Shown here in pieces: positions 2,865 to 6,640 of a stretch of DNA of 6,985 nucleotides. A program made the translations under genes and the position numbers. Every line of letters starts with the position of its first letter. Position 1 is the stretch's first letter. Source of the DNA: a bacterium (lineage in GTDB: Bacteria > CG2-30-53-67 > CG2-30-70-394). The stretch covers positions 1 through 6,985 of the forward strand of contig JAJRSX010000129.1 in assembly GCA_024278555.1 (NCBI GenBank). Reading direction: 5' to 3'. Under the pieces are notes generated by a model that worked only from the letters and a program-made list of their open reading frames with translations, was not told the origin of the DNA and did no database searches.

Positions 2865-2973
2865 TCGGCACCCCCACAACCTGGATTGAGAAGGCGCGGA
2901 GGCTACCACCTCGCCCCCCGCCTTTCAGCCCTCCACCCGGTCGCCCCCCGCTCCGACCACCTACACTTGGGCC
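2865..2973. promoter_or_regulatory. Divergent spacer between leuS and the kinase-like gene
   Basis: This 109-bp spacer must drive leuS leftward and the kinase-like gene rightward. On the plus strand TACACT at 2962-2967 resembles a -10 box. It sits so close to the ATG at 2974 that transcription would begin at or next to the start codon, and no Shine-Dalgarno sequence precedes the ATG. A leaderless mRNA is therefore possible. No good -35 box is visible. An 11-bp direct repeat, TCGCCCCCCGC, occurs at 2911-2921 and 2941-2951, exactly 30 bp apart. No clear leuS promoter could be picked. Promoter assignment is inference. Confidence 0.35.
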
Positions 2974-3960
2974 ATGGCTACCCCTGTCGCGACCACCCGC
3001 CGCCTCCCCGACGAGGCGAACCTGCGAGCGCTCATCGGCCGCCACCTCGGGGGTGGGGCGGTGCCGCGGCGGATCGTCGTGGTCGAGGACACCACCGAGT
3101 TCTTCCAGATCGACTACAACGCGGTGGTGGTCCTCGGCGGCACGCCGTACCTGATGCGCAACTACGAGCGCGAGGGGCGGTTCGGCCTCGACGACGAGCC
3201 GAAGTACTGGGTGCGGCGCGCCATCGACCTGACCACCGGCGCCACCAAGGTGATCAAGCTGGTCTTCGAGGAGCGGATCGAGACGCGGCTGGGGGCGATG
3301 ACCATCGAGTGTGTCCGCTCCGCCGCCAAGGAGGCGGCGATCCTGGAGCTGGTCGGCGACCACCCGAGCTTCATGCACGGCCACTCGGTGGTCGACGCGG
3401 CGGGCAACGTGGTCCGGGTGATCGACTACATCCCCGGCCCGCGCCTCGACCGGGTCGTCGAGCGGTTGGCGAAGGACCACGAGCGGTACTACTTCACCGA
3501 GCTGGCGCCGCTGTTGGACCGCTACCGCGACATCTGCCGGGCGATCCAGTTCCTCCACAACCGTGGCTTCCGCCACGGCGACATCCGCCGCGACCACGTG
3601 ATCCACGACCGCGACACCGGCCGCTGGCGGTGGATCGACTTCGACTACGACTACAGCAGCGGCGCCAACCCCTTCGGCTACGACCTCTTCGGCCTCGGCA
3701 ACATCCTCATCTTCCTGGTCGGTGGCGGCGACGTGACCCGCCACGGCCTCGCCGCGGCCGGCTCCCCGGCCCTGGCGCGGCTGGCTCCCGAAGACATGAA
3801 CATCGTCCTCGGCCACCGGGTCGCCAACCTGGAGAGGGTCTACCCCTACATCGACCCGGCGCTGGCGCGGGTGCTGCGCCACTTCTCCGCCGGCGCCAAC
3901 CTCTTCTACGAGACCACCGACGCCCTGCTCGAAGAGCTGGAGGAGGTGGTCTTCCGCTAA
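2974..3960 (+). CDS. Atypical protein-kinase-like (PKL fold) protein
   Basis: This 328-residue soluble protein has the order of motifs of the protein kinase/aminoglycoside phosphotransferase fold. The likely ATP-binding Lys is K95 in KVIKLVF, and the likely helix-C Glu is E120 in AAKEAAILEL. The catalytic loop is HGDIRRDH at 201-208 with base D203. The metal-binding Asp is D222 in WIDFDYDY, and D237 in GYDLFGLG matches the helix-F Asp. HGD rather than HRD resembles the APH/RIO-like branches. The position usually held by the metal-binding Asn is His208. No classic glycine-rich loop is obvious; the stretch at 59-82 probably fills that role. There is no signal peptide or membrane segment. Phosphotransfer is inferred from the motifs and the substrate is unknown. 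A universal stress protein gene follows 17 bp downstream in the same direction, so the two probably share a transcript. The ATG at 2974 lacks a clear ribosome site. Confidence 0.8.
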   Translation: MATPVATTRRLPDEANLRALIGRHLGGGAVPRRIVVVEDTTEFFQIDYNAVVVLGGTPYLMRNYEREGRFGLDDEPKYWVRRAIDLTTGATKVIKLVFEERIETRLGAMTIECVRSAAKEAAILELVGDHPSFMHGHSVVDAAGNVVRVIDYIPGPRLDRVVERLAKDHERYYFTELAPLLDRYRDICRAIQFLHNRGFRHGDIRRDHVIHDRDTGRWRWIDFDYDYSSGANPFGYDLFGLGNILIFLVGGGDVTRHGLAAAGSPALARLAPEDMNIVLGHRVANLERVYPYIDPALARVLRHFSAGANLFYETTDALLEELEEVVFR

Positions 3961-4488: not shown

Positions 4489-4549
4489 GGAGTCGGGGTC
4501 AAAATCGGGGTCTACCTTCGGATTATGTCCGAAGGTAGACCCCGACTCC
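4489..4549. repeat. Palindromic REP/MITE-like element with two alternative folds
   Basis: The inner palindrome has a perfect 18-bp stem: TCGGGGTCTACCTTCGGA at 4505-4522 pairs with 4528-4545 around the 5-base loop TTATG. TCGGGGTC occurs twice on the left side (4493-4500 and 4505-4512, period 12). As a result GGAGTCGGGGTC at 4489-4500 is also perfectly complementary to 4538-4549, giving a second, mutually exclusive 12-bp outer pairing. The element lies between the convergent usp-like gene and pyrE. Its size, perfect dyad and intergenic position fit a REP-type or small non-autonomous element; whether other copies exist in the genome cannot be seen from this window. Confidence 0.7.
4501..4545 (-). 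terminator. Probable intrinsic terminator of pyrE
   Basis: Read on the minus strand, the 18-bp GC-containing hairpin (4545 down to 4505) begins 33 bases after the pyrE stop codon and is followed immediately by TTTT (4504-4501). That is the arrangement of a Rho-independent terminator, although the T-run is short. On the plus strand the hairpin is followed by GACTCC, with no T-run, so it would stop usp-like transcripts less efficiently. It coincides with the repeat element, which suggests that a mobile palindrome supplies the terminator. Confidence 0.55.
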
Positions 4550-4583
4550 TGAGAGGGAGAAGGAAGACGGTCTTCCCCTCAGG
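4548..4583. other. Imperfect hairpin over the pyrE stop codon
   Basis: CCTGAG at 4548-4553 pairs with CTCAGG at 4578-4583, and an inner GGAAGA/TCTTCC pair (4562-4567 with 4571-4576) forms the tip. AGGAAGACG is also directly repeated at 4561-4569 and 4581-4589. The structure includes the pyrE stop codon (4579-4581). It could assist 3'-end stability of the pyrE mRNA, but it is a modest fold and the role is speculative. Confidence 0.3.
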
Positions 4584-5145
4584 AAGACGCCGCCATCACC
4601 GCCTCGCGGGTCGCCAGGGCGGTGACCTCCACCCCCGCCGCCTCGATCGCCTCGCGCCCCCCCTCCTGGCGGTCGACCACCACGCAGCAGTGGACCACCT
4701 TCAACCCCGCGTCGCGGCACGCCTCGATCGCCCGGATCGCGGAGCCGCCGGTGGTGATCACGTCGTCCACGACCACCACCCGGTCGCCCTCCCTGACGTT
4801 ACCCTCGATCGGCAGGCGGGTGCCGTGGTCCTTCGGCTGCTTGCGGACCACGAAGGCCTCGATGGGGGTACCGTGGATCTCCGAGCAGTAGGCGCAGGCA
4901 AAGGCGAGGGGGTCGGCGCCGAGGGTGAGGCCGCCGATCGCCGCCGCCCTCATGGGCGCCACCACCTCGAAGAGGCAGCGGCCCACCAGGACCAGCCCCT
5001 CCGGGTGGTAGAGGGTGGTCTTGCAGTTGAAGTAGTAGGGCGAGGTTCGCCCGGAGGCGAGGCGAAAGGGGGCGTCGGGCTGGTGGCGAAAGGAGCGCTC
5101 GGCGAGGAGCTCGATGAGGCGGGCACGGTTGGTGTCGAGGTCCAT
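4579..5145 (-). CDS. pyrE: Orotate phosphoribosyltransferase
   Basis: This 188-residue cytoplasmic enzyme converts orotate and PRPP to orotidine 5'-monophosphate in de novo pyrimidine synthesis. The type I PRTase PRPP-binding loop is VVVVDDVITTGGS at residues 123-135. SGRTSPYYFN at 31-40 is the N-terminal substrate-region signature. RKQPKDHG at 101-108 supplies the catalytic-loop Arg/Lys residues, and VVDRQEGGRE at 156-165 is typical of the family. The length is slightly shorter than E. coli PyrE (213). The ATG at 5145 fits the family N-terminus, although the upstream bases on the minus strand (CCCTCGGCCG) give no good Shine-Dalgarno site. It is convergent with the usp-like gene and divergent from the receiver gene, so it is likely transcribed alone. 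A hairpin followed by TTTT lies just downstream. Confidence 0.95.
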   Translation of the reverse strand: MDLDTNRARLIELLAERSFRHQPDAPFRLASGRTSPYYFNCKTTLYHPEGLVLVGRCLFEVVAPMRAAAIGGLTLGADPLAFACAYCSEIHGTPIEAFVVRKQPKDHGTRLPIEGNVREGDRVVVVDDVITTGGSAIRAIEACRDAGLKVVHCCVVVDRQEGGREAIEAAGVEVTALATREAVMAASS

Positions 5146-5467
5146 CGGCCGAGGGTCGCAGAGCGCGGCCCTGCCCTCAACCGCTCCCCAATCCCATCAT
5201 CGTCGGCTCACCATGGGGGACATGGAGCAGCCGCTTTGGGGTCCAGCAGCGGCTCTGCGGCTTTGGGGTCAGGTCTTGCCTCGTCACATTTCTTGCGGCT
5301 TTGGGGTCAGGTCTTGCCTCGTCACATTTCTTGAAGACTCGTCACATTTCTTGAACAAATGTGACGAGGCAAGACCTGACCCCAAAGCCGCTGCTGACCC
5401 CAAAGCCGCTGGTTGTGGAGAGGGCCGCGACCGGGCAAGAGAGGGGGGTACATTTCCGGGAGACCCC
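5146..5467. other. pyrE / receiver-gene intergenic region holding a repeat cluster
   Basis: This 322-bp spacer separates the divergent pyrE and receiver genes. About 180 bp of it is the nested repeat cluster at 5230-5409. The pyrE-proximal part (5146-5229) and the receiver-proximal part (5410-5467) show no clear promoter. An open frame crosses the region in phase with the receiver gene but encodes repeat-derived sequence without family resemblance. GGGAG at 5458-5462 is the ribosome site for the receiver gene. Confidence 0.6.
5230..5409. repeat. Nested direct and inverted repeat cluster (REP/MITE-like)
   Basis: A 38-bp unit is present as two perfect tandem copies at 5257-5294 and 5295-5332. 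An inverted perfect 35-bp match to the same unit lies at 5357-5391. Between them, an 18-bp tail piece CTCGTCACATTTCTTGAA is repeated (5318-5335 and 5338-5355, period 20). Partial copies flank both sides: GCCGCTTTGGGGTC at 5230-5243 (one mismatch to the unit) and the inverted CTGACCCCAAAGCCGC at 5394-5409. The core CTTTGGGGTC therefore occurs five times, three forward and two inverted. The single-stranded form could fold as a long 35-bp hairpin with a 27-base loop, or as a shorter 12-bp hairpin (5338-5349 with 5357-5368, loop CTTGAAC). No transposase gene is present in the window. Confidence 0.85.
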
Positions 5468-5824
5468 ATGGCCACCGTCCTGCTCGCCGTCAACGACCTC
5501 TTCTTCACCGCCAAGCTGGAGACGCTCCTGCGCCAGGCGGGCCACACCCCGCAGAAGGGGGGTGGTGACCCCCTGGCCGCGGCGGAGACCGCCCCGCCCG
5601 ACCTCTTGATCGTCGATCTCAACGCGAGCCACCTCGACCCCCTCGACCTGCTCCGCCGCTGGAAGGCGGGCGAGGCGACCGCCACGCTGCCGGTCCTCTG
5701 TTATACGAACCACGCCAACGTCGACGGCATGCGGCAGGCGATGGAGCTCGGCGCCGACAAGGTCGTCGCCCGCTCGGAGATCGCCGCCCACCTCCCGGGG
5801 CTGGTGACGCGGCTCACCGGGTAG
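5468..5824 (+). CDS. Stand-alone response-regulator receiver domain protein
   Basis: This 118-residue protein is a single receiver (CheY-like) domain with no output domain. Strand 1 is TVLLAVND. The usual acidic pair is N9-D10, so the first acid is replaced by Asn. The phospho-acceptor candidate is D50 in LLIVDLNA, the Thr/Ser switch residue is T80 in VLCYTNH, and the segment GADKVVARS at 95-103 matches the usual GADDYLTKP. The invariant Lys therefore appears to be R102. Phosphorylation is possible but metal binding and switching may be altered. No histidine kinase lies nearby, and the partner is unknown. GGGAG at 5458-5462, five bases before the ATG, supports the start; the same frame is open far upstream through the repeat cluster, but that part is not receiver-like. 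The 3' end overlaps the convergent hepT end by 11 bp. Confidence 0.85.
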   Translation: MATVLLAVNDLFFTAKLETLLRQAGHTPQKGGGDPLAAAETAPPDLLIVDLNASHLDPLDLLRRWKAGEATATLPVLCYTNHANVDGMRQAMELGADKVVARSEIAAHLPGLVTRLTG

Positions 5825-6263
5825 GTGCGTCACCCTCTGCGGCCTTCGCGTCCAGGAACGCCTGCACGTGGGCCAGGTAGCGCGGCACGTCACGGAGGAT
5901 CGAGGTGAGCGCCTCGCGGACCCGGCTTGGCTCCACCTCGTCATACTCGTGGATGATCCGGTCGCGCAGCCCAGCCGCCGGGGCAATCTCACGCGCGAAC
6001 GGTCCGGGCAAGAGACCGACCTTCGACAGCGCCGTGAAGGAGGTGAAGTAATCGCGCGGCGGAGGCTCCCCGAGGGCGGTGAGGAGGTGGTAGTTGATAT
6101 CGACCATCCGCCCCACGACGCGCTCGATGTACCGCTCGACCACCAGCTCGGTGACCGGATCCTCCAGATAGTCTTCCAGATCCATCGCCCCATACGCACG
6201 GAGCGCCTCCACGTCGGCGGCGATGAGGACCATCTTGCGGTCCACAAGCGCCTTGTCGATCAC
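5814..6263 (-). CDS. hepT: HepT-like toxin (HEPN domain, former DUF86)
   Basis: This 149-residue, mainly helical protein resembles the HepT toxin of HepT/MntA toxin-antitoxin systems. The signature R-X4-H-X-Y is intact: R100, H105 and Y107 in LRDRIIHEYDEV. In characterised HepT proteins this motif supports RNase activity, and the Tyr is the site adenylylated by MntA. The N-terminal pattern, a long first helix, DLEDYL, then an ERYIERVVGRMVDINYHL helix, is also typical. The start is GTG at 6261-6263, which overlaps the TGA of the nucleotidyltransferase gene as GTGA, indicating translational coupling. The protein ends at the tail of the convergent receiver gene. By eye the region is slightly less GC-rich than leuS, in keeping with an accessory module. 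A cellular RNA target cannot be read from sequence. Confidence 0.88.
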   Translation of the reverse strand: MIDKALVDRKMVLIAADVEALRAYGAMDLEDYLEDPVTELVVERYIERVVGRMVDINYHLLTALGEPPPRDYFTSFTALSKVGLLPGPFAREIAPAAGLRDRIIHEYDEVEPSRVREALTSILRDVPRYLAHVQAFLDAKAAEGDAPTR

Positions 6264-6640
6264 GGTGTCACTCCCGCCCGGGTAAGAAAACGGCGCACAT
6301 ACTCACGCTCCATCACCAGGTAGGGGCGGTGGTCCTGGTAGCGCCGGAAGGCGTACATCTGAAGCTCGGCCAGCTCCCGCTCGGAGCCGTGGAGGAGCAC
6401 ACACCCCTCGGCGATCTGCTTCAGGAAGAGGGGATCGGCGCGGTTGATGATCGCCAGATCTACCTTGCGCTCGGGGAAGAGCTCCTGGAGCGCCATCTGC
6501 ACCCGGCTCACCACGGCCATCTTCGGGACGACGCCTGCGAACCGCACCGCCAGGTCGAGGTCGCTGTTGGCACGCGCCCGCTGTTCCCGGCTGATCTCCA
6601 CGACGGCACCAATCTTCAGCCGCCCGCGGCCACGGCACAA
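6260..6640 (-). CDS. mntA: MntA-like minimal nucleotidyltransferase antitoxin, atypical or N-terminally truncated
   Basis: The protein is up to 126 residues. The nucleotidyltransferase core is visible as NSDLDLAVRF (D27, D29) and KVDLAIIN (third acid D61), followed by the family-typical DPLFLKQIAEG and LLHGSERE segments. In this family the signature is GS-X10-DXD. Here the residues before the acids read EISREQRARANSDLD, so Gly is Ile and the spacing is nine. No other frame restores a clean GS motif. Known MntA proteins are about 139 residues with more sequence before GS. In those systems MntA adenylylates HepT to neutralise it; whether this copy still does so is doubtful. Start is uncertain: TTG at 6640 after GAGG is one option, GTG at 6601 another. 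Its stop overlaps the hepT start, and the TPR gene ends 14 bp upstream in the same direction. Confidence 0.7.
   Translation of the reverse strand: MCRGRGRLKIGAVVEISREQRARANSDLDLAVRFAGVVPKMAVVSRVQMALQELFPERKVDLAIINRADPLFLKQIAEGCVLLHGSERELAELQMYAFRRYQDHRPYLVMEREYVRRFLTRAGVTP

Follow-up and report, generated by a model that had tools for sequence, protein, structure and literature searches.

The repeat cluster that separates two divergent genes in the window, i.e. the whole stretch of 6,985 nucleotides that was analysed, is in all likelihood a gene-less, MITE-like derivative of a TIRYT, whose nested appearance would result from a stutter at its ends, where pieces of the host flank have been copied together with truncated element tips. 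The array belongs to a repeat family that is dispersed over the host genome and associated with a Y1 transposase, the orthologous site in a congener is empty, and the underlying arrangement, in which a piece of host flank (hereafter X) is joined to an element tip, recurs in many genomes. The original prediction had described nested palindromes. However, these are not separate palindromes stacked onto each other but units that each consist of a truncated element tip and a piece of the local host flank. The stutter accounts for complex nested palindromes that would otherwise resemble separate repeats.

The array extends from about 5226 to 5411, slightly beyond the limits of 5230-5409 given previously, and lies between a putative pyrE gene on the minus strand and a receiver gene on the plus strand. 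CTTTGGGGTC occurs in forward orientation at 5234, 5261 and 5299 and in inverted orientation at 5378 and 5396, and the segment 5357-5391 is the exact reverse complement of 5295-5329; the five copies and the perfect 35-bp inverted repeat are thus located precisely where the original prediction had placed them. Moreover, the array contains a perfect tandem duplication of 38 bp (5256-5293 and 5294-5331). The following features can be distinguished:

4579-5145, minus strand: putative pyrE (name taken from the original prediction), flanking the array
5226-5411, no strand: probable whole stuttered, palindromic, non-autonomous element of the TIRYT type with amplified host flank (repeats and fold; no array at the orthologous site of the same-genus genome G001)
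5230-5243, plus strand: outermost left unit, a variant of the flank piece X (GCCGCTTT) and the tip GGGGTC (repeat table and unit decomposition)
5244-5256, plus strand: tipless, partial extra copy of the flank, CAGCAGCGGCTCT (sequence; a gap in the unit decomposition)
5257-5293, plus strand: first copy of the left arm, X GCGGCTTT (5257-5264) and the element end GGGGTCAGGTCTTGCCTCGTCACATTTCT (38-bp tandem duplication)
5295-5331, plus strand: second, inner copy of the left arm, X (5295-5302) and the element end (part of the 35-bp inverted repeat)
5338-5355, plus strand: partial inner copy of the element end, CTCGTCACATTTCTTGAA, in the loop region (repeat table, family D2)
5357-5391, minus strand: right arm, inverted element end (5357-5383) and inverted X (5384-5391) (35-bp inverted repeat)
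5394-5409, minus strand: outermost right unit, tip GGGGTCAG and X, inverted (repeat table)
From 5468, plus strand: Response_reg receiver gene (Pfam, 31.1 bits)

The earlier statements that the cluster is beyond chance and encodes no protein both hold. As a single strand, the segment 5226-5415 folds with -76.5 kcal/mol, the mean of the shuffled sequences being -29.1 (z = -15), and none of 200 shuffles equalled this value. The z-score of the fold is the better figure, because the shuffle test for the length of the inverted repeat (35 observed; shuffled mean 8.5, maximum 22) relied on a shuffler that may be imperfect. Only mechanical ORFs cross the array, and the intergenic region that holds it gave no match to an Rfam family, a sigma-70 promoter or a terminator.

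The array sequence (a region of 206 bp) matches many further loci in the 3.06-Mb host genome. Indeed, GGGGTCAGGTCTT was found 63 times with at most one mismatch and the reversed pattern not once. Contigs C90 and C106 of this genome end inside arrays. The repeats probably break the assembly, which would make the number of array copies a lower bound. The host genome has four Y1 transposase genes, of which P0004 on C27 lies between inverted copies of the array's end (GGGTCAGGTCTTGTCTTGCCACATTT and AAATGTGGCAAGGCAAGACCTGACCCC); the ends of the C27 element can be written as inverted copies of (G)GGGTCAGGTCTTG(C/T)CTTGCCACATTT. The mobile repeat family and its link to a Y1 transposase, both proposed before, were thus recovered, and instead of a single locus lacking a related transposase the genome contains more than 20 dispersed loci with gene-less arrays and a Y1 gene bounded by the same ends. 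However, the C27 end has CTTGCCACA at the place where the window has CCTCGTCACA, and the C27 TIRYT may therefore not be the actual partner of the window element. The remaining Y1 genes have ends of their own (GGGGTCAGGTCTTTACCTTATA at C185, GGGGTCAGGCTTGCAA-like at C170 and GGGGACAGGACCC at C70). Moreover, C27 carries an internal-deletion derivative (about 2650-2790) that retains both gene ends. The origin of a MITE by internal deletion is thus represented in the family; the window copy shares the ends only.

According to Di Nocera et al. (2013; PMC3733652), the TIRtron/TIRYT class comprises Y1 genes located between terminal inverted repeats (TIRs) with GGGGWSAS and is set apart from the REPs, of which GTAG is the defining tag; gene-less TIR copies of these elements occur in dimers and clusters. 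Quentin et al. (2018; PMC6006769) assign the TIRYT transposases mostly to the TnpA-REP subclass 2.1, with C-terminal HTH domains. In the window, GGGGTCAG, which is a form of GGGGWSAS, is found at 5265 and 5303 and inverted at 5376-5383, and neither GTAG nor CTAC occurs within 5226-5411. With the NCBIfam model REP_Tyr_transpos (NF047646; cut-off 80 bits), the C185 transposase scored 85.4, above the cut-off, and the C27 transposase 74.4, just below it. Among the C-terminal HTH profiles, Bac_DnaA_C exceeded the cut-off for C170, and HTH_38 (C27) and Sigma70_r4 (C185) stayed below. The cluster is filed with the TIR family of TIRYTs because the ends and the flanking of a Y1 gene fit, the HTH evidence being partial, and judged by its sequence it is a non-autonomous member of that family and not a GTAG-type REP/BIME. 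The REP/BIME label of the original prediction was accordingly given up. The cluster is palindromic, extragenic and clustered like a classical GTAG REP/BIME array and is associated with a REP-type Y1 transposase (NF047646 match), but this identity is very improbable, as GGGGWSAS ends take the place of GTAG or CTAC, the arms are about 27-43 bp long and do not form a stem-loop unit of 20-40 nt, and the associated Y1 genes are flanked by TIRs.

Throughout the family in the host genome, each GGGGTC is preceded by a locus-specific piece of host flank of 5-12 nt, and the tandem units each consist of a truncated element tip and this X. While X is GCGGCTTT in the window, it is GACGCATT at C171, GAACCTT on the left and CGGAATT on the right of C145, and GAAGCCGT at C149. 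For the 7 nt before GGGGTC at 23 loci of the host genome, identity was 5.42 within a locus and 3.09 between loci, the best of 1000 permutations reaching 3.53. Since the X on the left of an element is unrelated to the one on its right, X comes from the flank of its own side. A target-site duplication was rejected, as the left and right flanks of 51 full elements agree at 2.6 of 7 nt; its absence is as expected for Y1 enzymes. C49 and C171 share GACGCATT as X together with the same core subtype, and GATTTT recurs as X at several loci. Thus, array and X may sometimes move as a unit, or a target may be preferred. Such recurring X sequences would also suit a scenario in which tips inserted separately, and for the most part abortively, at one preferred target X, every unit being the scar of one such event. 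The same applies to one side of C55 (2435-2555), where one and the same flank word, GAATT, follows tips from two element families, GGGGTCTACCTTC as well as GGGGTCA, and the units look as if they were derived from different elements. We nevertheless consider separate insertions unlikely because almost every locus has an X of its own, which also varies from one side of an element to the other, and because the tips are fragments of 7-45 nt from a single end and thus not what a full insertion would leave behind.

The same-genus genome G001 lacks arrays at the loci orthologous to the window, C145 and C171, and from this comparison we read the three arrays as insertions that differ between the congeners; the empty-site junctions are not base-exact, the intergenic DNA being too diverged. 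For the flanks of C57, there was no G001 match among the matches listed. A two-mismatch pattern remained near background across seven genomes of the same class, G001 excepted. A similar stutter was seen in a genome of another genus of the class (G006:C51, 235-310), where TGACCCCAAAGCCCTC is repeated. A plasmid search returned few TIRYT matches and no pair with and without an insertion, and a phage search for TIRYTs returned one partial match.

The stutter extends to many other bacteria. We surveyed 80 relatives of the C27 and C185 proteins, nearly all of them from other genomes, and examined 79 genes with 158 sides. GGGTCA was found outside the gene on 128 of the 158 sides (5 in the reversed control) and in at least two copies on 41, 117 sides having fewer than two. 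On 24 sides, belonging to 21 of the 79 loci, the X of an outer copy agreed with that of the inner copy at 6 or more of 7 bases; permutation gave a mean of 0.9 and a maximum of 5. Judging by their record titles, the stuttered loci span Beta-, Gamma- and Deltaproteobacteria, Nitrospirae, Aerophobetes and others. An isolate genome of Undibacterium amnicola displays the same X-plus-tip anatomy, and the complete Legionella adelaidensis plasmid NZ_LR134433.1 stutters too (CACTCTGGAGGGTC/CACTCTGGAGGGTCAGGCC). With these two sequences in hand, faulty assembly of a fragmented genome becomes a negligible explanation for the units, even if contigs such as C90 and C106 break off inside arrays. Furthermore, local tandem repeats were present in 42 of 151 TIRYT flanks, and distant windows taken from these loci had them in 46 of 1853 cases (p = 3e-26); in the control flanks, which are small sets from other genomes, they were present in 1 of 42 cases for IS200 and in 2 of 36 for DDE-IS.

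The composition of the units can be read from 127 tandem copies, whose last bases match the outermost host flank over 4.73 nt on average, versus 0.63 nt for the flanks of other loci. The 71 units with at least five flank-matching bases mostly consist of a prefix of the element end and 5-12 nt of flank, and the prefix length of the units peaks at 7-8 nt, which is after GGGGTCA(G). Full-length ends tend to lie inside and truncated units outside. The junctions are blunt in 25 cases, overlap by 1-2 nt in 17 and contain two extra bases in 9; the restart thus mostly involves little microhomology or none. Among 29 junctions that were compiled by hand, 15 have an X starting with C (p = 0.0007) and 17 a tip ending with CA, which is suggestive only. 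Cleavage between C and T or between C and A at both junction partners, by analogy to TnpA-REP, was considered as well, but the list of junctions does not agree with it.

The autonomous form of the element would consist of a gene for a Y1/HUH transposase of the REP-associated type between inverted GGGGTCAGGTCTTG...ACATTT ends. Upon loss of the gene, the two ends would form a near-perfect hairpin; a TIRYT like that of C27 presumably recognises this hairpin in trans, and the window element would be moved in trans in this way. Copying that enters the element tip from the host flank would break off about 7 nt in (GGGGTCA) or later and resume 5-12 nt back in the flank, thereby generating tandem copies of X and truncated tip outside the full-length end. 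The inverted X in the right arm of the window array would be explained most simply by snap-back hairpin copying. The restart is probably tied to an end that is recognised or cleaved by the transposase, rather than being plain polymerase slippage, as blunt junctions and a preferred break point suggest; HUH cleavage would leave a 3'-OH from which synthesis could start. For TnpA-REP enzymes, which both cut and rejoin single-stranded DNA, such priming has been proposed (PMC8266576). We infer the link between the stutter and transposase activity from the arrangement of the repeats; against it stands that the majority of TIRYT ends have fewer than two copies of the motif.

The main rival explanation accepts the same element family and attributes the stutter to replication slippage or template switching by host polymerases, provoked by the hairpin after insertion and without participation of the transposase. 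This is a serious possibility, albeit the less probable one, as the window hairpin is very stable, an existing duplication can gain further copies and the 17 overlapping junctions would agree with slippage. However, slippage would account poorly for the 25 blunt junctions and for a break point that is concentrated after GGGGTCA in unrelated bacteria. Moreover, elements that retain the transposase gene of about 850 bp, and whose ends are therefore far apart, stutter as well, and the small sets of IS200 and DDE-IS flanks are without stutter. Thus, restarted or re-primed copying at a transposase-recognised end is favoured over plain hairpin slippage. More tentatively, and with considerable doubt, we suggest that TIRYTs may be inserted or maintained by iterative, transposase-primed end copying, in which the 3'-OH from HUH cleavage close to the flank repeatedly copies 5-12 nt of host DNA and at least 7 nt of the element. 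Iterative copying before productive synthesis would leave its abortive products at each junction as a kind of fossil ladder. If true, it would represent a new kind of end processing in DNA transposons.

For the question of how RAYT and TIRYT transposases spread their repeats, the stutter offers numerous genomes in which the formation of junctions is already recorded. This record indicates the boundary of the element (GGGGTCA), the reach into the host (5-12 nt) and the direction from flank to element, with no long homology. Because the stutter records junction formation, mechanisms become testable by counting sequences and by cleavage and extension in vitro. Both clustered TIR repeats and tandem clusters of REPINs that take in flanking sequence (PMC3116915) are already on record. 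No earlier report of a tip-plus-flank stutter at TIRYT ends was found in the literature searched (main texts available without subscription). The present family resembles TIRtrons and TIRYTs in having a Y1 gene between GGGGWSAS inverted repeats and extra gene-less TIR copies in dimers and clusters (PMC3733652; PMC6006769), but that 5-12 nt of host flank are copied along with truncated tips is not described in the available main text of these papers. REPINs are likewise gene-less hairpins tied to a Y1 transposase, and flanking sequence is part of some of their tandem clusters (Bertels and Rainey 2011; PMC3116915). However, REPINs are repeated whole with their flanks, whereas the present family has truncated tips with 5-12 nt of flank and no GTAG. 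Like bacterial MITEs, the window element is short and non-coding and has TIRs in common with a full-length element; it differs from them by perfect palindromes with amplified host flank and by the lack of a visible target-site duplication. The ends of IS200/IS605 elements are subterminal imperfect hairpins rather than TIRs. Their HUH/Y1 catalytic domain is homologous (Pfam PF01797), but the IS200 control flanks were almost free of local tandem repeats.

Other features were noticed as well. A second hairpin of another family (GGAGTCGGGGTCAAAATCGGGGTCTACCTTCGGATTATGTCCGAAGGTAGACCCCGACTCC) is located at 4489-4548 of the window, downstream of the convergent usp and pyrE genes, and has relatives at C19, C49, C54, C198, C15 and C55. 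On the minus strand of the window, at 5814-6640, adjacent HepT-like and nucleotidyltransferase (Polbeta) genes resemble a HEPN/MNT toxin-antitoxin pair. Finally, a stuttered array at C109 (about 2945-3159) adjoins a putative RNase P RNA gene, as judged from its likeness by eye.
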